Shown here one piece after another: positions 1,516 to 22,327 of a stretch of DNA of 42,558 nt. Origin of the DNA: an uncultured SAR116 cluster alpha proteobacterium (GTDB taxonomy: Bacteria; Pseudomonadota; Alphaproteobacteria; Puniceispirillales; Marisalimonadaceae); NCBI GenBank assembly GCA_902630555.1, contig CACOVB010000006.1, forward strand, positions 1 through 42,558. Reading direction: 5' to 3'. The first letter of the stretch is position 1; each line of letters opens with the position of its first letter. The notes under the pieces were generated by a model that worked only from the letters and a program-made list of their open reading frames with translations, did no database searches and was not told the origin of the DNA. A program made the position numbers and the translations under genes.

Positions 1516-2038
1516 TTTCTTCAAGCTCTTTAATAAACTTTTTAAAATTAGCTACATAGTGCTTAGATGATCGTGTCATATCTTTTATCATTTCTAGGCT
1601 TAACTCTCTTACCGCTTTAGCCGGAGATCCTATAATTAACATGCCATCAGGAAATTCCTTATTTTCAGTCACCAAAGCCCCTGCACCAACAAGACAATTA
1701 TTTCCAATTTTTGCGTTATTAAGAATAGTAGCCCCCATTCCAACAAGTGAATTATTTCCAATAGTGCAACCATGTATTATTGCATTATGGCCAATAGTAC
1801 AATTATCACCAATTGTGACAGGAGTATTTGGATCAACATGAATAATTGTATTTTCTTGAATATTTGTTTCGTTACCTATTTTTATAATATCATTATCACC
1901 TCTCAAAACTGAACCGAACCAAATTCCAACATCTTGTCCTAAAATAACATTGCCTATGACATGAGCATCTGGCGCTACCCAATATGAACCTTCAGATGGT
2001 AATTGAGGCTTTTTGTCTCCTAAATTATAAATTGGCAT
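1508..2038 (-). CDS. Gamma-carbonic anhydrase / hexapeptide-repeat protein
   Basis: A left-handed beta-helix protein of 176 aa with repeated hexapeptides (VIGNVILGQDVGIWFGSVLRGD, then ENTIIHVDPNTPVTIGDNCTIGHNAIIHGC). The histidines in IIHVD, IGHNAIIHGC and nearby positions match the zinc-binding pattern of gamma-class carbonic anhydrase-like proteins (YrdA/PaaY/CaiE group). Members bind a metal; some hydrate CO2, others act as thioesterases or have unknown roles. The ORF track begins 20 codons earlier, but the start MPIYNLGDKKPQL at 2038 is chosen because AAGGAG lies 5 nt upstream (2044-2049) and family proteins begin this way. A PaaY-like role with the adjacent CoA genes is possible but not shown. 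Confidence 0.85.
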   Translation of the reverse strand: MPIYNLGDKKPQLPSEGSYWVAPDAHVIGNVILGQDVGIWFGSVLRGDNDIIKIGNETNIQENTIIHVDPNTPVTIGDNCTIGHNAIIHGCTIGNNSLVGMGATILNNAKIGNNCLVGAGALVTENKEFPDGMLIIGSPAKAVRELSLEMIKDMTRSSKHYVANFKKFIKELEETK

Positions 2039-2199
2039 TTTCACTCCTTGATAAATTTTTTTAACACTAGTTATGAACCCATTAATTAATTCCATCAATA
2101 AGAATAATTATTGTCAAGGAAAGAAAATATTTTACTCATAATTGGATTGATTTTTATATAAATTTAAATGTAAATTTTTTTAATAATTATTAAAATTAG

Positions 2200-4813: not shown

Positions 4814-5344
4814 TTAACTTCTCGATAGAACTAATTCACGATAAAATGTGTATAAACAACATATAGATAGCAGTCCAAATGAAAATGTTACTGGCAAAAA
4901 GGGTATCCAAATTGGAAATTGTAGTAACATAGTTTCTTCTTGATAATTATACATGTCTTTTGCTCCGAAAAACATCCTCCAAGTAAAAAACAAGGCTATA
5001 AGTCCATAAAAAACTGAGCTAACACAATCTAAAAAAGCAATCTTTTTGAAATTTAATTTTGCAGTTATGAAATCTACAATAACATTACCTTTTTTTAAAT
5101 GGCACAAAGGTAAAAAGGAAGAGATAGCAATTGCACTACCAATTTCAACCAATTCAAAATCACCCACTAGAGGATTTAAGAATATAATTCTACTTAATAT
5201 TGAAACAAAGTTAATTAAAATAACAATGACAAGAATTATACCTCCTAAAATAGCTAAAATATAAGCTAAGTCATATAAAAAACGACCAAATTTATCATTT
5301 GGTCGTTCTGTAAGTTCATCAATAGGATTGGTTGATGAACTCAT
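4814..5344 (-). CDS. dctQ: TRAP transporter small membrane subunit
   Basis: A 176-aa protein with four predicted membrane spans, the typical size and topology of DctQ, including the region VDFITAKL after the second span. It forms the membrane complex with DctM. It begins 4 nt after the dctP stop. An intrinsic-terminator-like hairpin with a U-rich tail lies inside its first 65 nt (5281-5307), so readthrough from dctP into dctQM may be limited; see the separate entry. Family assignment is firm from context; sequence conservation of DctQ is always low. Confidence 0.92.
   Translation of the reverse strand: MSSSTNPIDELTERPNDKFGRFLYDLAYILAILGGIILVIVILINFVSILSRIIFLNPLVGDFELVEIGSAIAISSFLPLCHLKKGNVIVDFITAKLNFKKIAFLDCVSSVFYGLIALFFTWRMFFGAKDMYNYQEETMLLQFPIWIPFLPVTFSFGLLSICCLYTFYRELVLSRS
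5281..5307 (-). terminator. Intragenic terminator-like hairpin at the start of dctQ
   Basis: On the minus strand AACGACCAAAT and ATTTGGTCGTT form a perfect 11-bp stem around a 5-nt loop (GATAA on that strand), followed at once by TTTTAT, giving a run of six T. It spans nucleotides 38-64 of dctQ, just after the binding-protein gene dctP. The dctP-dctQ gap is only 4 nt, so the hairpin must lie in coding sequence. It could attenuate transcription or protect the dctP mRNA 3' end. tctB has a similar structure at the same offset. Confidence 0.6.
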
Positions 5345-6489: not shown

Positions 6490-7470
6490 ATGGCAATAAA
6501 AGCTCTTTCATATTTAGGTATTACATCAGAAAAAATCCAAGATTGGTCAGATTATGCAACAAAAAATCTTGGCATGCAGGAAATTGATAAAACAAAAAAC
6601 TCTTTAATGCTAAGAATGGATGATCAAAAACAAAGGTTTTCCATTTCGAATGATGGTGGTGAGGGTTTATCATTTTTAGGGTGGGAAGTAGAAAAAAAAA
6701 GTGACTTAGATAATTTTGCATCAAAATTAAATGAAAATAATGTAAAAGTTTTTAGAGGACAAAAGTTTCTTTGTGACAAAAGGTTTGTTGAAGACTTAAT
6801 TTATTTTAAAGATCCAGCTGGAAACCAAATTGAATTAATATTTAATCCATTTAAAACTGACGACGAGTTTAAGCCTGGGAGAGCTATATCAGGTTTTAAA
6901 ACAGGTATCTGCGGACTGGGTCATGCGGTGCTACATACAAACAATATTGAACCACTAGTAACATTTTATAGAGATATCTTAAAATTCAAAGTAAGTGATT
7001 ATAGCTTCGAACCAATTAGACTTCATTTTTTTCATGTAAACGAAAGACATCATAGCTTTGCTCTTGTAGAAACAGGGAAAGTAGGCTTCCATCATTTTAT
7101 GGTAGAATATAAAAATTTAGATGATGTTGGACAAGGCTATGACTTGTTACAATTTGAAAAAAATAAAATTGCATATACTATCGGTAGACACACAAATGAT
7201 TATATGACATCTTTTTATTCTTATTCACCTTCAGGTTTTTTTGTTGAAAATGGTTGGGGTGGCAGACTTATAAATCCAGATACATGGACTCCGGAATTAA
7301 CAGATATTGGACCAAGTTTTTGGGGCCATGAAAGACTTCATCTTCCAGAAGATGAAAGACTTAAATTTAGAAATAAAAGAATGGAGATAGCTGCTAATGG
7401 AATTCAAGCTCCTTTAGTTATCGATTGTCCTTGGTTGTATCAAAATCAATTAAATAAAAATGCAAAATAA
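6490..7470 (+). CDS. Two-domain type I extradiol ring-cleavage dioxygenase (BphC-like)
   Basis: A 326-aa VOC-superfamily protein with two glyoxalase-fold domains, as in 2,3-dihydroxybiphenyl 1,2-dioxygenases. The C-terminal domain has the full iron site: His145 (GLGHAVL), His202 (GFHHFMVE) and Glu253 (GFFVENGWG). The acid-base residues of the family are also matched: His in NERHHS (187/188), His234 (GRHTNDY) and a Tyr in SFYSYSPSG. The enzyme should therefore open a catechol ring next to the diol (meta cleavage) using Fe(II) and O2. It heads a plus-strand operon and overlaps the next hydroxylase gene by 11 nt, so that enzyme probably makes its catechol. The exact diol is unknown. Confidence 0.88.
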   Translation: MAIKALSYLGITSEKIQDWSDYATKNLGMQEIDKTKNSLMLRMDDQKQRFSISNDGGEGLSFLGWEVEKKSDLDNFASKLNENNVKVFRGQKFLCDKRFVEDLIYFKDPAGNQIELIFNPFKTDDEFKPGRAISGFKTGICGLGHAVLHTNNIEPLVTFYRDILKFKVSDYSFEPIRLHFFHVNERHHSFALVETGKVGFHHFMVEYKNLDDVGQGYDLLQFEKNKIAYTIGRHTNDYMTSFYSYSPSGFFVENGWGGRLINPDTWTPELTDIGPSFWGHERLHLPEDERLKFRNKRMEIAANGIQAPLVIDCPWLYQNQLNKNAK

Positions 7471-8923
7471 AAACTGTAATGTTTTAATTGTAGGCTTTGG
7501 ACCAACCGGTGCCGTCCTCGCAAATTTATTATCAAAATATAATCTTTCAATTCATGTTTTGGAAAAAGAAAGCAAAGTTTATAATTTACCAAGAGCAGTT
7601 CATTTTGATGATGAAATCATGAGAATATTTAAAAGTATCGGTATTTATGAAAAACTAATAAAAAAAACTATTATTAATAAAGGAACTAAGTTTGTTGATG
7701 AAAATGATAATTTAATCTTAGACTGGCCTAGACCTAGACAAATTACTGATAATGGTTTTTATCCAAGTTATAGGTTCCATCAACCTGACTTGGAAAAAAT
7801 TTTAAGAAAAAATTTAGCTTTAAATAATAATTTGAAAATTTACTACAATACTGAACTAATAGAATTAGAAAACAAAGGCAAGGTTGTAAAAGCAAAATGT
7901 ATTAACAAATCAACGAACACTTCTCAAACTATATACGCAGATTATGTTGTAGGGTGTGACGGTGCTAATTCTTTTGTTAAAAAAATTATTGGGCAAGAAA
8001 CAATTGATTTTGGATTTCAAGAAAAATGGGCAGTTCTTGATTTAATCATGAAAAAAAATAAAAAAAATTTGCCTGATAGAACTATACAATATTGTAGTCA
8101 AAATACACCTACAACTTATTGCAGAAATGTTGGAAGAAGAAGAAGATGGGAAATATCATTAAACAAAAATTTTACAGAAAAAGATATTCTTAATGAAAAT
8201 AAGATTTGGAATTTCTTATCTAAATGGGTAACTCAAAATGATGCTATAATTGAAAGAAAAACTATTTATAATTTTAAATCTTTAATAGCAAAAAAATGGC
8301 GAAAAGGAAGAATATTCATTGCTGGAGATGCTGCTCATTTATCTCCTCCTTTCATGGGTCAAGGGATGTGTTCAGGACTAAGAGATGTATCTAATCTTTT
8401 TTGGAAATTAGCTCACTGCTGTTACTTTGGTCATAAAGAAAAAATCCTTGAAACTTATGAGAGTGAAAGATTGGAAAACGTAAAAGAATATATAATTACT
8501 ACAATAAATATGGGAAAATTGTTAAACTCTATTGGAGATCCTAATGTTTCAAATACTGTAAAAGAGAATCAAGATGGATCTAGAGTCATGACTTCAATAA
8601 AACCTCCATTAGGCCCAGGATTAGGAAGTAAAAGTGATAAATTAAGAGGTCATGTATTCCCTTTTATAAATTTACAAAAATCAAAAATTCAAAATTTTGA
8701 TGAACAATTTGACAAAGAATTAATCTTACTTTCAAAACAAGAATTAAATTGTACCGATATTAAACATATTAATGTGAATAAATATAAAGAGTTACTTAAA
8801 ACATTTAATAACCTAAATATAAAAGCTTTAATTTTAAGACCTGACAGATTTATTTTAAGTTCATTAGAAAATAATTCTGACATTAATGAATTTATAAACA
8901 AATCGATATTACAAATGAGTTAG
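7460..8923 (+). CDS. FAD-dependent aromatic hydroxylase (MhpA-like class A monooxygenase)
   Basis: A 487-aa flavoprotein with the Rossmann motif GFGPTG near residue 12, RAVHFDDEIMRIF typical of the 3-(3-hydroxyphenyl)propionate and resorcinol hydroxylase branch, a DG motif in VVGCDGANSFVKK, and GDAAHLSPPFMGQGMCSGLRD closing the FAD domain. A shorter thioredoxin-like C-terminal region follows. It should add a hydroxyl group ortho to an existing phenol, making a catechol for the extradiol enzyme just upstream. Its ATG lies inside the 3' end of that gene (11-nt overlap), indicating tight co-translation. MhpA is the closest family known to me; substrate unassigned. Confidence 0.87.
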   Translation: MQNKNCNVLIVGFGPTGAVLANLLSKYNLSIHVLEKESKVYNLPRAVHFDDEIMRIFKSIGIYEKLIKKTIINKGTKFVDENDNLILDWPRPRQITDNGFYPSYRFHQPDLEKILRKNLALNNNLKIYYNTELIELENKGKVVKAKCINKSTNTSQTIYADYVVGCDGANSFVKKIIGQETIDFGFQEKWAVLDLIMKKNKKNLPDRTIQYCSQNTPTTYCRNVGRRRRWEISLNKNFTEKDILNENKIWNFLSKWVTQNDAIIERKTIYNFKSLIAKKWRKGRIFIAGDAAHLSPPFMGQGMCSGLRDVSNLFWKLAHCCYFGHKEKILETYESERLENVKEYIITTINMGKLLNSIGDPNVSNTVKENQDGSRVMTSIKPPLGPGLGSKSDKLRGHVFPFINLQKSKIQNFDEQFDKELILLSKQELNCTDIKHINVNKYKELLKTFNNLNIKALILRPDRFILSSLENNSDINEFINKSILQMS

Positions 8924-8929
8924 ATAATC

Positions 8930-9772
8930 ATGAAGTTAAACGCATTACAAGCTGGATTTAATTTAGATCATATCGTTTTAGAGAGTCCAAACCCATATAA
9001 TTTAGCTAAATTTTATAAAGAAATAATCATGATGGAATTTGTTAAAAAAAATAATAATGAATTAATTTGTGAAGGGAAAAATCGAAAAATTATACTAATA
9101 AAAGGTAAAAAAAATAAACTTTCATATGCAGGTTTTTCTTGCAGAAGCAAAGAAAGTTTAAACAAATTTAAAAATTTTATAATTTCCAATAATGTTAATT
9201 TAAAAAAATTTGAAAATAATCATCTAAAAAAAGGTTCATTTTCAATTATTGATCCAGATAAAAATATTTTATCTTTTGGAATTAGAAAAAACAGCAAGAA
9301 AATATTTAAAAATGAACTTTGTATGCCCTTACAACATTTAACTTTATCAAGTAAAAATGTAGAAAAATTTCAAAGTTTTTATTGTGGTTTATTAGGTTTC
9401 AAAATTACAGACAACGTTGTACATGAAAATGGATCCTTAGCTACTTCTTTTTTAACTTCAAACCATGAACATCACACAATTGCTTGTTTCAAATCAGACA
9501 AAATAGGAATTGATCATCATTCCTATGAAGTTGGCAAATGGGAAAATATAAAAATATTGTGTGATTATTTTTCAAAAAAAAATGTGAAAATAATTTGGGG
9601 ACCTGGAAGACACGGCCCAGGTAATAATTTATTTATATTTATTGAAGATTTAGACAAAAATTGGATAGAGTTCTCTGCAGAGTTAGAAATAATTCATGAT
9701 AGAAAATATAAAAAATGGCCTCAATCTGAAAATACCTTAAATTTGTGGGGTAAAGCAATATTAAGGTCATAA
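8930..9772 (+). CDS. Second VOC protein, catechol 2,3-dioxygenase-like
   Basis: A 280-aa protein made of two VOC modules. The C-terminal module keeps the extradiol metal triad pattern: His136 (PLQHLTL), His196/197 (GIDHHSYEV) and Glu247 (NWIEFSAEL), plus His228 in GPGRHGPG, so it may be a second ring-cleavage enzyme or a related metal-dependent isomerase or lyase. The N-terminal module is poorly conserved and lysine-rich. It starts 6 nt after the hydroxylase stop. Two extradiol-like proteins flanking one hydroxylase is unusual; each may act at a different step, or one may be structural. Activity as a dioxygenase is plausible, not proven. Confidence 0.75.
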   Translation: MKLNALQAGFNLDHIVLESPNPYNLAKFYKEIIMMEFVKKNNNELICEGKNRKIILIKGKKNKLSYAGFSCRSKESLNKFKNFIISNNVNLKKFENNHLKKGSFSIIDPDKNILSFGIRKNSKKIFKNELCMPLQHLTLSSKNVEKFQSFYCGLLGFKITDNVVHENGSLATSFLTSNHEHHTIACFKSDKIGIDHHSYEVGKWENIKILCDYFSKKNVKIIWGPGRHGPGNNLFIFIEDLDKNWIEFSAELEIIHDRKYKKWPQSENTLNLWGKAILRS

Positions 9773-9813
9773 TAAATAATATTGTTTAATATAATGCATT
9801 GAAGGAAATATCT

Positions 9814-10665
9814 ATGGAATTTGTTAAATATAATGCTCCTTTATCAGGAGAGATTAAAGGTATAGACTTAAATAATTTTCTATCAATAGAAGCAAAAAAA
9901 GATATTAAAAAATTTGTTGATGATAATTTAGTTGCGCTTATAAGAAACCAAAATATTAACGATCACAAACTTAAGGATTTTAGTAAATTATTTGGTGAAT
10001 TAGACCCTCCAGCACCAAACCCTTATGGTATAAGTTTTCTGCCTGAACATCCAGAAATTAATGTTATTTCAAATGTAAAAGACACTAAAGGTACTCCAAT
10101 TGGAAACCTTGGTGATGGAGAGGCAACTTGGCATGCAGATATGACTTATCTTGAAGAACCTCCAAAATATGGAATTCTTTATGCATTAGAAGTGCCTAAA
10201 AATGAAGGTAATACTCATTTTGCAAATATGTATAAAGCATATGAAAGACTCCCAACAAAATTAAAAGAAAAAATTGAAGATAAAATCATTATACATGATA
10301 GTTCACACAACAGCGCAGGGATGCTAAGAAAAGGTTATAAGGAAGTGAAAAGCCCAGAGCAAACTCCGGGAGCAAGACATCCAGCAATTATAACTAATCC
10401 AAAAAATAATACTAAACGTCTATTTTTAGGAAGAAGACCACACGCATATATTTTAGGAATGTCAATAAGTGAAAGTGAAAAATTGTTAGATGAAATTTGG
10501 TATTTCGCTACACTTGATGAAATTACATGGACTCAAAATTGGAAAGTTGGAGATTTATTAATTTGGAAAAATTTATATGTGCTTCATAAAAGAGATGCAT
10601 TTAATCCCCATTCAAGAAGAATTATGCACAGAACACAAATTAAAGGTGATAAGAATTTAAATTGA
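9814..10665 (+). CDS. TauD/TfdA-family Fe(II)/2-oxoglutarate dioxygenase
   Basis: A 283-aa jelly-roll dioxygenase with the HxD motif at His107-Asp109 (TWHADMTY), the distal metal His272 and the following Arg in RRIMHRTQIKGD that binds 2-oxoglutarate. The family hydroxylates substrates at carbon next to a sulfonate, ether oxygen or carboxylate, often releasing a small acid. The ORF track starts at a TTG at 9799; the ATG at 9814 is preferred since AAGGA lies 7 nt upstream and the family start E-F-V/I...SGEI is kept. Sitting between the extradiol genes and a TTT transporter, it may process a side chain of the imported aromatic. Confidence 0.9.
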   Translation: MEFVKYNAPLSGEIKGIDLNNFLSIEAKKDIKKFVDDNLVALIRNQNINDHKLKDFSKLFGELDPPAPNPYGISFLPEHPEINVISNVKDTKGTPIGNLGDGEATWHADMTYLEEPPKYGILYALEVPKNEGNTHFANMYKAYERLPTKLKEKIEDKIIIHDSSHNSAGMLRKGYKEVKSPEQTPGARHPAIITNPKNNTKRLFLGRRPHAYILGMSISESEKLLDEIWYFATLDEITWTQNWKVGDLLIWKNLYVLHKRDAFNPHSRRIMHRTQIKGDKNLN

Positions 10666-10751
10666 TTTGATTTATTTAATTTTAAAAAACCCTTGTTCAC
10701 AACTTTCTTAAATGTAAAGATTAATTAATTAAAATATTAATGGAGGATTTA

Positions 10752-11741
10752 GTGAGAGTAATTTTTCAAAAGCTTAACATATTTGTTATTGGATTATTTG
10801 GTTCAATAGCTTTTATTTGTTCATCTCTTTTCCTTGGATTTTCGGCAAACGCTGATGAATATCCAAATAAACCGATTGAGATAGTAATACATGCTAAATA
10901 TGGTGGTGGAACTGATACAACCGCTAGAATGGCATCAATAAGATCAAGAAGAATATTAAAAACAGACATTAGAATCGTTTCAAAAAGGGGCGGAGCTGGT
11001 GCTAAAGCTCAAAATTATGTGCTTACAAGACCCGCAGACGGTTACACTGTAATGGCTTTAACCCAAACTCATCTTTATACTATGGCTAGAGGTAAGTCCA
11101 ACATGAAAATTGACGACATAGTTGGAGTTGCTAGAGCAATGGATGATCCGACCTTTATTACTGTATCTGGAAAGAGTAAATATAAAACTTTAAAAGATTT
11201 AATTAGTGCTTCAAAAAAAGCACCATTAAATTGGGGAGTAGCAAATATTGGTGGAACTGAACACATAGGTCTTGTTCAATTTGCTAAAGAAGCCGGTATA
11301 AAAGTTAAGGTAGTTCCTTTTGGTTCTGGTGCTCAAATGGTTCAAGCTTTAATGGCTGGTAAAATTGATGCAACATTGCCAAATGTAAGTGAAGCTACAA
11401 ACCAAGTTGCAGATGGAACTTTTAGAGCATTAGTTGTTTTGGCTGAAAAAAGGTTAAAAGATTATCCTGATGTTCCATCTTCATATGAGTTAGGTATTAA
11501 AGCTAAATGTTCAACTACTCGAGGTTATGCTGTTTTAGCTTCAACTCCAAAACCAATTATAGAAAAAATTTCTAAAGGATTGGTTAAGGCTATGAAACAT
11601 AAAGTGTTTGCTAATTATCTAGCAAGTGCAGGATTGACTGTTGAAGGTAGTGTTGCAGGAACAGCAGTTTGGGACAAGCATCTGAAAGAAGAATATAAAG
11701 TTGCCCAAAGTGCATTAAAAGATTTAGGATTATTGAAATAA
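10752..11741 (+). CDS. tctC: TTT transporter periplasmic substrate-binding protein
   Basis: A TctC/Bug-family receptor of about 329 aa, with EYPNKPIEIVIHAKYGGGTDTTARM at the start of the mature protein and the PADGYT, NIGGTEHI and ALMAGKIDAT segments typical of the family. It binds a carboxylated ligand for the TctAB permease. The track uses ATG 10740, but GTG 10752 is preferred: GGAGGA lies just upstream, and it gives a classic signal peptide (MRVIFQKLNIF, then a hydrophobic core ending in SANA) instead of an acidic N terminus. It leads the tctC-tctB-tctA operon, with 12 nt to tctB. The ligand is unknown. Confidence 0.93.
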   Translation: MRVIFQKLNIFVIGLFGSIAFICSSLFLGFSANADEYPNKPIEIVIHAKYGGGTDTTARMASIRSRRILKTDIRIVSKRGGAGAKAQNYVLTRPADGYTVMALTQTHLYTMARGKSNMKIDDIVGVARAMDDPTFITVSGKSKYKTLKDLISASKKAPLNWGVANIGGTEHIGLVQFAKEAGIKVKVVPFGSGAQMVQALMAGKIDATLPNVSEATNQVADGTFRALVVLAEKRLKDYPDVPSSYELGIKAKCSTTRGYAVLASTPKPIIEKISKGLVKAMKHKVFANYLASAGLTVEGSVAGTAVWDKHLKEEYKVAQSALKDLGLLK

Positions 11742-11753
11742 ATTATTTCATTT

Positions 11754-12251
11754 ATGAACAATTCTTTTAAAAATTTGTTTAATAAAACAGATACTATCAT
11801 AGCAATTATCATATATGCTATGATAGTATTTTTATGGAATGCTGCAGATAACTTTGATAGCGTTTCAGATTTGTTTGCGCAAAACATTCCACCTCAATTG
11901 TTTCCTCAAATTTTATTAATTACAATTGGTTTATTAACAGCATTAATTCCGTTTGAACACATTTTACTAAAAAAATCAGGAAAAGATATTGATTCTGGCA
12001 GAAAGAAAAAAATTAATTTTGCGACTTACGGTACTATGACAATTTTATTAACAATAATTGTTTTCTCAGAATTTTTAGGTGCGTACGTTACAATTTTTTT
12101 AGCCTGTTTTGTTCTTCCTATTTTCTGGGGTGAAAAAAATCTAAAATTACTTGTACCGTACGTAGTACTATTTCCACTATTTATAATTTTAATATTTAAT
12201 ATTATCCTTGGTGTTTATTTTGAACCAGGGATCTTAGAGGGTTTTATATAA
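11754..12251 (+). CDS. tctB: TTT transporter small membrane subunit
   Basis: A 165-aa membrane protein with four hydrophobic segments, the size and topology of TctB, placed between tctC and tctA as usual. TctB is poorly conserved and supports the TctA permease. A perfect 14-bp inverted repeat followed by T5 lies within its first 76 nt (11791-11829), where it encodes part of the first membrane span; it may act as an attenuator (separate entry). Confidence 0.88.
   Translation: MNNSFKNLFNKTDTIIAIIIYAMIVFLWNAADNFDSVSDLFAQNIPPQLFPQILLITIGLLTALIPFEHILLKKSGKDIDSGRKKKINFATYGTMTILLTIIVFSEFLGAYVTIFLACFVLPIFWGEKNLKLLVPYVVLFPLFIILIFNIILGVYFEPGILEGFI
11791..11829 (+). terminator. Intragenic terminator-like hairpin at the start of tctB
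   Basis: ATACTATCATAGCA and its exact complement TGCTATGATAGTAT form a 14-bp perfect stem around an 11-nt loop, followed by TTTTA (five T counting the last stem base). It covers nucleotides 38-76 of tctB, just after the tctC binding-protein gene. A perfect 14-bp repeat in coding DNA is unlikely by chance. It could terminate part of the transcripts after tctC or block 3' exonucleases, raising TctC over TctAB. Confidence 0.6.
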
Positions 12252-12263
12252 TTAGGGTTTTTT

Positions 12264-13736
12264 ATGGAAGATATTGTTAAAGGCTTATCCTTAATTTTAG
12301 AATTTGAAAATATAATTTTAATTTTAGGTGGAGTGTTAATTGGTGTTTTAGTTGGTGCTTTACCTGGTTTAAGCTCACCAATGGCTATAGCTTTATTAAT
12401 ACCATTTACTATAACATTAGATCCCGTAGCCGCTATTGCAATGATGGCTGCTTTATATTGTGCAGGCACTTTTGGTGGATCAATTACCGCTATATTAATT
12501 AATGCACCTGGTGCACCACCTGCAGTTGCTACAGCTCTTGATGGGTATCCAATGGCAAAAAACGGGGAGCCTGGAAGAGCACTAGGACTTGCTGCTGTTT
12601 CTAGTGTTTTAGGTGGTATATTTAGTTTGATAGTATTTATTTTTGCTGCACCATTGCTAGCGCAAGTAGCACTTGAATTTGGTCCCCAAGAATACTTTGG
12701 TTTAGCTATTTTTGCATTGTCTATGCTTGCAACAATGAGCGGTAAATCTTCAATAAGAAACCTAATCTCAGGTTGTATAGGGGTATTAATTGGTACAATT
12801 GGTATTCATTTAACAACTGGAGTAGAAAGATTTACTTTTGATGTGCCAGAGTTAGAAGAAGGTATAAGTTTTGTTCCTGTTTTAATTGGTTTATTTGCAG
12901 TAAGCGAATTGTTTAAACAATCTGAAACTTTAAACTCTGTCGTTGATAGAATTCATGCTAAGGCCTTAAGATTGCCCACAATTGCAGAATTAAAAAAATT
13001 GAAATATACAATTTTAAGATCCTCAGGTATAGGAACATTTATCGGAATACTTCCTGCGGAAGGATCTACAGTAGCTGCAATTATGGGATATAATGAAGCT
13101 AGAAGATGGTCAAAAAATAAAGACCAATTTGGAAAAGGTTCGCCTGAAGGTATTGTTGGGCCAGAAGCCGCGAATAATTCTGCTGCTGGTGGCGCAATGG
13201 TACCAACATTGGCCTTAGGAATTCCTGGAAGTGGATCTACTGCTCTAATTCTTGCAGCTTTAATAATGCATGGATTTCGCCCTGGGCCTTATTTGATAAA
13301 TGAAACTCCTGAATTCGTTTATGCTATTTTTGGTGCAATGTTAATTGCAAATTTTGGTTTCCTTATTATTGGTTTAATTGGAGCTAAGTTTTTTTCACTG
13401 GTAGCATTCATACCTAAAAAGCTTTTATGGCCGGCTGTTTTTATATTTGCCATGATTGGTTCTTATTCATTTAGTTCTTCAATGTTTGATGTTTGGGTAA
13501 TGTTAACATTTGGCGTGATTGGATATTTTATGAGTAGACACGGGTTTTCTGCTGCTCCATTAGTAATGGGTTTAATTCTTGGAAAATTAGTTGAAGAAAG
13601 TTTTTCTCAATCAATGATAATTCATGATAATAATTTCTTTGCATTGCTAGACAAGCCAATAGTAGTTTTCTTTTTCATACTAACTTTCTTAAGTTTAACA
13701 ACTCCTCTTTGGACAAAAGTTTTTAAGAAAAATTAA
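12264..13736 (+). CDS. tctA: TTT transporter large membrane subunit
   Basis: A 490-aa permease with about twelve membrane spans and the TctA signatures GALPGLSSPMAIALLIPFT, GSITAILINAPGAP, a second-half repeat around GILPAEGSTVAAIMGYNEARRWSK, and ALGIPGSGSTALILAALIMHG. The paired glycine/proline-rich loops are thought to form the substrate path. It uses an ion gradient to move the TctC ligand across the inner membrane. It starts 12 nt after tctB and abuts the MmgE/PrpD gene with no gap, tying that enzyme to transport. Confidence 0.96.
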   Translation: MEDIVKGLSLILEFENIILILGGVLIGVLVGALPGLSSPMAIALLIPFTITLDPVAAIAMMAALYCAGTFGGSITAILINAPGAPPAVATALDGYPMAKNGEPGRALGLAAVSSVLGGIFSLIVFIFAAPLLAQVALEFGPQEYFGLAIFALSMLATMSGKSSIRNLISGCIGVLIGTIGIHLTTGVERFTFDVPELEEGISFVPVLIGLFAVSELFKQSETLNSVVDRIHAKALRLPTIAELKKLKYTILRSSGIGTFIGILPAEGSTVAAIMGYNEARRWSKNKDQFGKGSPEGIVGPEAANNSAAGGAMVPTLALGIPGSGSTALILAALIMHGFRPGPYLINETPEFVYAIFGAMLIANFGFLIIGLIGAKFFSLVAFIPKKLLWPAVFIFAMIGSYSFSSSMFDVWVMLTFGVIGYFMSRHGFSAAPLVMGLILGKLVEESFSQSMIIHDNNFFALLDKPIVVFFFILTFLSLTTPLWTKVFKKN

Positions 13737-15107
13737 ATGTCCAATAAATTTGATGATCTTGGAAATGCAGAAATTTTTTCTACATGGTGTTTTAATTTAG
13801 AATATAAAGAAATCCCAAATGAAGTTGTTGATAAAATAAAATTAACATTCATGGATAGCTTAGGTTTAATCTTTGCAAGCAGAAATGAAGATTACATTAA
13901 AGCAATAAAACAATCTTTTACTGATAGTGGTAATTGTACTGTTCCTGGACATTTAGAAAAATTATGTCCATCAGATGCCATCGTGTTAAATGGTACAGCA
14001 ATACATGGAGAAGATTTTGATGATACTTTTGAAGGAACACCTGTTCATGTAGGTTCGGTAATGTGTTCTTCATTATTAACTGCAGCAGAATACTATAAAT
14101 TAAAACCAAAAGAAATTTTGAAAGGGTTAGCAGTAGGTTCTGAATTAATGTGTAGACTTGCTTTGGTATCACCTATGGCGATACATAAACAAGGATTCCA
14201 TCCAACTGCAATACTTGGTGCATTTGGAGCATCTATTGGCATTTCAAAAATATTAAAAAATAGTGTATTACAAACAACCTCATCCCTAGGAATAGTTGGT
14301 AGCATGGCTTCAGGTATTATTGAATATCTAGCTGAAGGCACCTGGACCAAAAGATTACACCCAGGTTGGGCTGGTGCTTCAGGTTGGAAATCTGCTCACC
14401 TAGGAAAAAATAATTTTAAAGGTCCTAGAACTGTTTTTGAGGGAAAAAACGGTATTTTTAATTCTTTCGCTGATAGTAAGATAATTCCTGACTTTAAAAA
14501 ATTAACTGATGATTTAGGATCATATTGGCATACAAATAACCTTGCTATAAAACCTTTCGCATGTGGAACAATGACACAACCATTTATTGACTGTGCAATC
14601 AAGGCTAGAGAAAAAATAAATGATTTAAACGAAATTAAATCAATTATATGTAAAGTAGGAGAAGGAACTGTTCATAGATTATGGGAGCCTTTATCAGAAA
14701 AAAGGAAACCTACGACCCCATATAGTGCAAAATTCTCAGTACCTTTCTGTATTGCTGTAGGCCTTTATTTTGGTAAAGCAGGACTCTTAGAATTTACAGA
14801 AGAGCAAATAAAAAATCGTGAAATTTTAAATATTTGTTCAAAAATTTCTTATGAAATTGACCCACAAAATGAGTATCCAAAAAATTATAGTGGTGAAATT
14901 AATATTATTCTTAAAAATTCTCAAGTTATTCAAGAGACCCAACCTGGTTTACGAGGAGGAAAATTATTTCCCCTAGATGAAAAAGAAGTTGAAGAAAAAT
15001 TTTTTAATAACTTGAAATTTGGTAATCTTTCTTCGAGAGAAGTTAATAATGTAAAAAAATTTTTTGCAACTTTCTTTACTGATCCAGATTTTTCCTTATT
15101 ACACTAA
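13737..15107 (+). CDS. MmgE/PrpD family protein
   Basis: A 456-aa protein of the MmgE/PrpD superfamily, which includes 2-methylcitrate dehydratase, cis-aconitate decarboxylase and iminodisuccinate epimerase. Family features include DSLGLIFASR near the N terminus, NGTAIHGEDFDDTFEGTPVHVGS, MASGIIEYLAEGTWTKRLHPGWAG and KPFACGTMTQPFIDCA. The start codon directly follows the tctA stop, so both are co-expressed, and the enzyme probably acts on the imported compound or on a polycarboxylic breakdown product by dehydration, decarboxylation or epimerisation. No citrate synthase or lyase partner (prpB, prpC) is nearby, so 2-methylcitrate is not supported. It overlaps the next minus-strand gene tail to tail by 4 nt. 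Confidence 0.9.
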   Translation: MSNKFDDLGNAEIFSTWCFNLEYKEIPNEVVDKIKLTFMDSLGLIFASRNEDYIKAIKQSFTDSGNCTVPGHLEKLCPSDAIVLNGTAIHGEDFDDTFEGTPVHVGSVMCSSLLTAAEYYKLKPKEILKGLAVGSELMCRLALVSPMAIHKQGFHPTAILGAFGASIGISKILKNSVLQTTSSLGIVGSMASGIIEYLAEGTWTKRLHPGWAGASGWKSAHLGKNNFKGPRTVFEGKNGIFNSFADSKIIPDFKKLTDDLGSYWHTNNLAIKPFACGTMTQPFIDCAIKAREKINDLNEIKSIICKVGEGTVHRLWEPLSEKRKPTTPYSAKFSVPFCIAVGLYFGKAGLLEFTEEQIKNREILNICSKISYEIDPQNEYPKNYSGEINIILKNSQVIQETQPGLRGGKLFPLDEKEVEEKFFNNLKFGNLSSREVNNVKKFFATFFTDPDFSLLH

Positions 15108-16191: not shown

Positions 16192-17793
16192 ATGTCTAAA
16201 ATTTCTTATGATGCAATTATAATTGGAGCAGGCTTTTCAGGTTTATATCAACTTTATAAGTTGAGAGATAAATTGAAACTAAACTGTAGAGTGTTAGAAA
16301 AAGGTTCTGGCATAGGTGGAACATGGTACTGGAACAGATACCCAGGTGCTAGATGTGACACTGAAAGCCACGCTTATACATATTTTTTTTCTGAAGAAAT
16401 TTTCAAAGAATGGGAATGGAGCGAACGCTATCCAGGCCATGCAGAAATTCGTAAATATTTAAACTACGTTTCAAACAAATATTCATTAAAAGATGATATT
16501 CAACTTGATACTGAAGTCATTTCAGCGACATTTGACGAAGAAAATAATTCATGGATTTTAAAAACAAAGAATGATGAACTATTCAAATGTAAATTTTTAA
16601 TAACGGCAGTTGGATGTATTTCAACAACAAACATACCAAACATAAAAGGTTTAAATAAGTTTAATGGGGATTACTACCATACTGGGAATTGGCCTAAAAA
16701 CAATGTAGATTTTTCTGGCAAACGAGTTGGACAAATCGGTACTGGGTCAACTGGAATTCAAGCTGCACCTGTAATTGCTGAAACGGCAAAACACCTGACA
16801 GTTTTTCAAAGAACTCCTAACTTTAGTGTGCCAGCCAGAAATAAACCTCTTTCAAAAGAATTCAAAGAGTATGTTAAAAATAATTATGATGAACTAAAGT
16901 CAATTGTAAAAGAAACACCTAATGGACATGCTTTTCGGATTAGTGAAAAACTTACTTTTGATGTTCCCCAAAAAGAAAGAGAAAAAAAATATGAAGAATA
17001 TTGGGAAAAAGGTGGACTTCAATTTAGAGGTGTTTTTAAAGATATAATTACAGACAAAAAGGCAAATGATTCTGCATCAATTTTTTTAAAAAAAAAAATT
17101 AGCCAAGTTGTTAAAAATAAAGAGTTTGCAAAAATATTAACAAACTTTGATCACCCATATGGATGCAAAAGACCTCCAATAGATACCAACTATTTTGAAA
17201 CCTACAATAAAGACAATGTTCATCTAGTTGATATTAAAAATGATCCTATAATTGAAATAGATAAAAAAGGCATTAAAACAAAAAATAATTACTTTAAATT
17301 AGATACAATTGTTTTTGCAACTGGTTATGATGCAATGACAGGTACACTTATAAATTTAAATATAACTGGCGAAAATAATTTAAATTTAAAAGATTATTGG
17401 AATGAAGGTCCAAAAACTTACCTTGGATTACAGATCCCTGGCTTCCCAAATATGTTTACGATTACTGGACCAGGAAGTCCTTCGGTATTAACAAATATGC
17501 CCACTGCAATTGAACAACATGTTGAATGGGTTACAGATTGTATATCATACATGATTGAAAATAATTTTAATAAAGTCTCTACTTCTGAAAAAAATTCACT
17601 TGAATGGGGAAAGCAAGTTAAAGAAGCTGCAGATAAAACATTACTCCCTACTGTTAAACATTCATGGTATTTGGGAGCTAATATTCCAAATAAGCCTCGA
17701 GTTTTTATGCCATATGCCGGTGGACTACCTACTTATACAAAAATTTGTGAAAATATAAAAAATAATAATTACGAGGGCTTTGCCTTTAGTTAA
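16192..17793 (+). CDS. Baeyer-Villiger flavin monooxygenase
   Basis: A 533-aa type I Baeyer-Villiger monooxygenase of the cyclohexanone/phenylacetone monooxygenase group. It has the FAD-binding GAGFSG motif near residue 12, GGTWYWNRYPGARCDTES, the family fingerprint FNGDYYHTGNWP (FxGxxxHxxxWP), and the NADP-binding GTGSTGIQAAP. Such enzymes insert oxygen next to a ketone carbonyl, making esters or lactones, in the cytoplasm. The gene stands alone on the plus strand. Its partner steps (alcohol dehydrogenase, esterase) are not adjacent, although a zinc alcohol dehydrogenase and an epoxide-hydrolase-like enzyme occur elsewhere in the window. It contains an in-frame run of 11 A near 17088, showing that long homopolymers are read correctly here. 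Confidence 0.93.
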   Translation: MSKISYDAIIIGAGFSGLYQLYKLRDKLKLNCRVLEKGSGIGGTWYWNRYPGARCDTESHAYTYFFSEEIFKEWEWSERYPGHAEIRKYLNYVSNKYSLKDDIQLDTEVISATFDEENNSWILKTKNDELFKCKFLITAVGCISTTNIPNIKGLNKFNGDYYHTGNWPKNNVDFSGKRVGQIGTGSTGIQAAPVIAETAKHLTVFQRTPNFSVPARNKPLSKEFKEYVKNNYDELKSIVKETPNGHAFRISEKLTFDVPQKEREKKYEEYWEKGGLQFRGVFKDIITDKKANDSASIFLKKKISQVVKNKEFAKILTNFDHPYGCKRPPIDTNYFETYNKDNVHLVDIKNDPIIEIDKKGIKTKNNYFKLDTIVFATGYDAMTGTLINLNITGENNLNLKDYWNEGPKTYLGLQIPGFPNMFTITGPGSPSVLTNMPTAIEQHVEWVTDCISYMIENNFNKVSTSEKNSLEWGKQVKEAADKTLLPTVKHSWYLGANIPNKPRVFMPYAGGLPTYTKICENIKNNNYEGFAFS

Positions 17794-22209: not shown

Positions 22210-22262
22210 ATTATCTAAATATTATATGAGTTTTAAAAACTTAAAAAGTTTTTTATAAAACA

Positions 22263-22285
22263 AGTGGACACATTAAGTGTCCACT
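22263..22285. terminator. Rho-independent-type hairpin between two minus-strand genes
   Basis: AGTGGACAC and GTGTCCACT form a perfect 9-bp, fairly GC-rich stem around ATTAA. On the minus strand it follows the DapA-like gene by about 42 nt and is followed by TGTTTTATAAAA. On the plus strand it is followed by ATAA and nine T, so that side is the better terminator. It probably ends the bactofilin-csaA-DapA-like transcript and may stop antisense reading too. Confidence 0.7.
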
Positions 22286-22327
22286 ATAATTTTTTTTTGG
22301 AGGATATCGTTATACTTTAACTTACGA

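Follow-up and report, generated by a model that had tools for sequence, protein, structure and literature searches.

The window analysed here is a stretch of 42,558 nucleotides from an uncultured alphaproteobacterium of the SAR116 cluster (contig CACOVB010000006.1). It carries an operon for a tripartite tricarboxylate transporter (TTT), in which a perfect inverted repeat lies at the start of the second gene, tctB. This repeat is a real, selected RNA hairpin within a coding sequence: it sits at the tctC-tctB junction, it has been kept under coding constraint, and equivalent junctions carry hairpins of other sequence. The genes of the operon and the parts of the hairpin, all on the forward strand, are arranged as follows.

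10740-11741, forward strand: tctC, an open reading frame for the periplasmic binding protein of the transporter (PF03401, E=1.6e-28)
11754-12251, forward strand: tctB, the small membrane subunit and host of the hairpin (PF07331, E=1.5e-11), 12 nucleotides behind tctC
11791-11804, forward strand: left arm, ATACTATCATAGCA, in tctB codons 13-17, invariant within the genus (g1) save for GCG in genome G003
11805-11815, forward strand: loop of 11 nucleotides, with codons 18 and 19 each in three synonymous forms within g1
11816-11829, forward strand: right arm, TGCTATGATAGTAT, in tctB codons 21-26, invariant within g1
11830-11833, forward strand: TTTT behind the stem, not conserved in genomes G010 and G018
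11835-11867, forward strand: a second, weaker hairpin predicted by RNA folding, adjoining the first downstream in tctB
12264-13736, forward strand: tctA, the large membrane subunit (PF01970, E=3.6e-156)

The arms ATACTATCATAGCA and TGCTATGATAGTAT are exact complements over 14 bases and span nucleotides 38-76 of tctB, as the original prediction had stated. Since tctC stops at position 11741 and the gap to tctB is only 12 nucleotides, the hairpin falls inside the first tctB codons. The tail of five T described behind it is a T run of only four, the fifth being the last base of the arm itself. G11790 and T11830 extend the stem by one wobble pair; four of the 14 pairs are G-C, and the foot is A-U rich. 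With -19.3 kcal/mol, the 50-nucleotide fold at the hairpin is the minimum over both strands of the 42.6 kb, against a background of 50-nucleotide folds across the window with a mean of -4.4 and a standard deviation of 2.9. It is also the sole perfect inverted repeat of at least 13 bp (loop 3-20) in the window, and an Rfam scan of the whole window gave no match above the gathering score.

Taken by itself, this single sequence is only moderately beyond chance. In the register of the arms, codon positions 1 and 2 face positions 2 and 1, and position 3 faces position 3, so that the amino acids TIIA...AMIV (Thr-Ile-Ile-Ala versus Ala-Met-Ile-Val) force nine of the 14 pairs. The suspicion that codon constraint alone would not suffice is borne out, although this constraint accounts for more of the stem than had been thought. 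A protein-preserving shuffle, proposed earlier as a possible refutation, found such stems to be rare: only 0.14% of synonymous resamplings had all 14 pairs at the site, and 0.3% had a 14-bp stem at any position of tctB. These frequencies are low for a single gene, but not decisive over the approximately 45 genes, and among order-3 Markov copies of the window, two of 20 contained a stem of at least 14 bp. While the single sequence leaves room for chance alone, the comparison between genomes rules it out.

In relatives, tctB is conserved in six genomes of the same genus (g1) and in G018, which belongs to another genus of the family (g4) and has a TctB of 70% identity; these seven operons share the hairpin. 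The stem pairs 14/14 in five of the six g1 genomes and in G018, and in the remaining one, G003, the innermost pair is G-U (GCG codon). The stem of G018 differs by a double change from C-G to T-A (ATC..ATG to ATT..ATA), which is synonymous on one side and replaces Met with Ile on the other. Eight stem codons are less variable than codons of this operon matched to them by amino acid, both within g1 (P about 0.01-0.02) and with G018 added (seven genomes, P=0.0007-0.003), and the loop codons adjoining the stem vary freely. TTTT is present in five of the seven genomes and interrupted in G010 (TATTATGG) and G018 (TGTTATGG), both of which have a perfect stem.

A different hairpin occupies the start of tctB in genera g2 and g3. 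All 35 copies from these genera lack the g1 stem and carry instead (A)TGCACCCAA/TTGGGTGCA(T), with variants, at about nucleotides 17-40 of tctB; behind it comes TTATTTAATAAAA, not a U tract. One of its pairs varies between A-U (13 rows) and G-C (7 rows), a difference that was possibly inherited from a single change. A hairpin is thus present near the tctB start in 42 of 42 operons examined, at a distance that differs by genus (about 17 versus 38 nucleotides), and in a TctB tree g1 and g4 stand apart from g2 and g3 with full support. The 35 copies with an unrelated hairpin, together with the division seen in the tree, indicate that a junction hairpin was retained throughout, although at least one replacement altered its sequence and exact position. 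The same place stands out in folding statistics: the first 45 tctB codons form a stronger fold than their codon-shuffled versions in all 40 distinct starts (z below -1.5, mean -2.8; -13.8 to -20.6 kcal/mol), whereas the next two tctB segments, taken as a control, do so in only 2/40 and 1/40; the 40 rows are related and their counts not independent, but the control segments carry the same relatedness. Furthermore, at all 42 loci of this operon the tctC-tctB junction has more structure than the tctB-tctA junction.

Two other origins were considered and rejected. An artefact of single-cell DNA amplification is ruled out by the occurrence of the stem in seven genomes, one of them recorded as a metagenome-assembled genome (MED585), and a dispersed palindromic (REP-like) repeat by the finding that no genome has more than one place with either hairpin type, that of g2 and g3 included.

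A transporter requires more binding protein than channel, and we consider it probable, if far from certain, that the inverted repeat is a protective 3' hairpin within a gene, which favours the binding protein over the permease. The hairpin would mark where a stable tctC mRNA segment ends and would protect this 3' end. RNase E or a similar endonuclease would cut downstream, in tctBA, and 3'-5' exonucleases would then degrade the membrane-subunit part until they stall at the hairpin, with the outcome that TctC, the binding protein, would be more abundant than TctBA, the channel. We infer this RNA mechanism, the differential decay and the effect on stoichiometry. RNase E is encoded in the window's own assembly (G000, 57% complete) and PNPase in its relatives. 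An intercistronic stem-loop in the puf operon of Rhodobacter capsulatus reportedly forms such an mRNA decay barrier in an alphaproteobacterium and underlies unequal expression along the operon; unlike tctCBA, puf is a photosynthesis operon, and its hairpins lie between genes.

The closest parallel comes from E. coli, where the permease part of an mRNA is removed by RNase cleavage and 3'-5' decay, which is halted by a hairpin behind the binding-protein gene (PMC5927463). Of 26 protective 3' structures mapped in E. coli operons with differential decay, 17 fall within the downstream gene, at 107 +/- 56 nucleotides from its start; such in-gene structures have conserved wobble positions and no U tract, and the gene stabilised in each of five ABC operons was that of the binding protein (PMC5927463). 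The SAR116 element agrees with them in its place and stability, in its conserved wobble positions and in the types of gene involved. As for a U tract, g2 and g3 have none, and of the seven genomes with the g1 stem, five have TTTT and two a broken run. By contrast, the element belongs to an alphaproteobacterial lineage and to TTT and TRAP transporters, and has been swapped for an unrelated hairpin between genera. It also resembles the malE-malF structure of E. coli malEFG, which lies at a binding-protein to permease junction and stabilises the binding-protein part, although that structure is intergenic and its transporter of a different family (PMC5927463).

Equivalent junctions in other transporter operons point in the same direction. 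Where the tctC-tctB gap measures 38-59 nucleotides, paralogous TTT operons of the family have an intergenic hairpin between these genes, such as ATGCCCTCTG/CAGAGGGCAT in L002, AAAGGCCATTT/AAATGGCCTTT with a T8 tail in the L065 type, and GAAGAGATAA/TTATCTCTTC in the L069 type. The junction behind the binding-protein gene is more structured than that between the small and large subunit genes at 25 of 30 other TTT loci and 25 of 27 TRAP loci. In the other TTT group, however, the region at the start of tctC shows as much structure as the junction does. Six loci of one paralogous TTT class (L069, L072, L077, L084, L086 and L094) have strong folds, of -18 to -21 kcal/mol, around the tctC start. Strong junction hairpins are frequent also among diverse alphaproteobacterial TctB loci, for which gene starts were assigned mechanically. 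The window itself contains a TRAP operon with two hairpins in tandem in dctQ.

5313-5341, reverse strand: first dctQ hairpin, AGTTCATCAA/TTGATGAACT
5281-5307, reverse strand: second dctQ hairpin, AACGACCAAAT/ATTTGGTCGTT, with TTTTTT behind it in every same-genus copy read

Both lie within the first 22 codons of dctQ, behind a dctP-dctQ gap of 4 nucleotides, and their stems are kept in 8/8 same-genus copies read, partly via G-U pairs, with varying loops. In the literature, we found nothing usable on TTT or TRAP intergenic hairpins, and nothing relevant on binding-protein mRNA stability or intergenic hairpins generally.

Several points weigh against a protective hairpin at the tctC-tctB junction, beginning with the nine pairs that the protein sequence forces. 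The exact stem is common to only seven operons, with one compensatory pair. A covariation analysis, also suggested at the outset, fits a conserved structure, but draws on few independent changes: for the g1/g4 stem, with only five distinct rows, shuffles match the observed value in 110 of 500 cases. The stem is low in G-C content, with only four such pairs, and translating ribosomes would melt it. PNPase was not found in G000, an assembly that is 57% complete. Among the other transporters, one paralogous TTT class with overlapping tctC and tctB (TAATG; L067, L078, L081 and L088) has no strong junction hairpin and may use translational coupling instead, and at 11 of 27 TRAP loci the junction does not outrank the typical positions of that locus.

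The main rival to the protective hairpin is an intrinsic, partial terminator inside tctB, where polymerase would often stop at the stem and T run and fewer transcripts would reach tctBA. We regard it as unlikely. It stays the main rival because TTTT stands behind a perfect or near-perfect stem in five of the seven genomes, the window's copy among them; the TTTTTT behind the in-gene dctQ hairpin in all same-genus copies and the T8 tails on some paralogous tctC-tctB hairpins also speak for it. On the other hand, the T run is interrupted in G010 and G018 despite their perfect stems, and the g2 and g3 hairpins continue into TTATTTAATAAAA rather than a U tract. An intrinsic terminator has a G+C-rich foot and a conserved run of about 6-8 U, whereas the foot here is A-U rich, with 4/14 G-C pairs, the T run is not conserved and the location is within a gene. 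The site escaped a consensus terminator scan, although the loop limit of 8 in that scan would exclude the 11-nucleotide loop anyway. The original prediction had implied termination by speaking of a U tail; because this tail is not conserved, an intrinsic terminator is unlikely as the conserved function of the element.

Less probable still is translational control, by which the hairpin, 37 nucleotides past the tctB start, would slow early elongation or block reinitiation coupling and leave the mRNA ends unchanged, resulting in less TctB or aiding membrane targeting. Such a role would account for the hairpin near the start codon in 42/42 operons, but not readily for the difference in its distance from the start between genera (about 17 and 38 nucleotides), and in the paralogous operons the hairpin is intergenic, before the tctB start, which better fits an element of the mRNA end.

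We think it quite improbable that the stem is a by-product of the protein, i.e. of the palindromic-like TIIA...AMIV, with pairing completed by chance through AT-rich codons and conservation reflecting shared ancestry. The nine forced pairs, the resampling frequency of 0.14%, which is not extraordinary among about 45 genes, and the two of 20 Markov windows with at least 14 bp agree with this view; the synonymous conservation of the stem codons, the compensatory double change in G018, the 40/40 versus 1-2/40 in codon shuffles and the independent hairpin at the same place in a sister clade do not. Lastly, a DNA dyad, i.e. a binding site for a regulator inside tctB instead of an RNA structure, would explain the perfect symmetry kept even in G018, but is highly improbable, as it is not found elsewhere in these genomes, tolerates G-U pairs in G003 and in g2 and g3, and has at the same place in g2 and g3 an element of unrelated sequence, unreadable by a single regulator.

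The surroundings of the operon hold further features. The TTT genes lie in a same-strand run (7460-15107) with genes for an FAD monooxygenase, a glyoxalase-fold protein, a TauD dioxygenase and an MmgE/PrpD protein, which suggests a catabolic cluster. At 22239-22290, an intergenic hairpin, GTGGACACATTAAGTGTCCAC, is strong on both strands and possibly a bidirectional terminator. Elsewhere in the G000 assembly, contig C21 carries two equal-scoring TctB copies in opposite orientation, at 1672-2106 (reverse strand) and 17010-17444 (forward strand), perhaps a chimera from whole-genome amplification.

The principle of an in-gene hairpin of this kind is already known from E. coli (PMC5927463), while the transporter class and the lineage are new. 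Read as a protective structure, the element carries this principle over from E. coli, where it was mapped, to uncultured marine bacteria and to transporters of the TTT and TRAP types, and an unrelated hairpin can take its place at this site. More tentatively, and with the odds slightly against so broad a statement, SAR116 TTT operons and many TRAP operons may have, as a near-obligatory part, a hairpin where the binding-protein gene gives way to the first membrane gene. Its sequence would be freely replaceable; as the gap shrinks, the hairpin would become part of the membrane-subunit gene itself and there shape the N-terminal amino acids, and at one and the same junction it would have been swapped between genera while the function persisted. 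For the search in other genomes, this gives a rule that needs sequence only, namely to inspect the junction from binding protein to permease, and to look inside the second gene when the gap is short; metatranscriptomes could check its predictions. The hairpin also offers a possible mechanism by which transporter operons of marine bacteria express binding protein and permease unequally.
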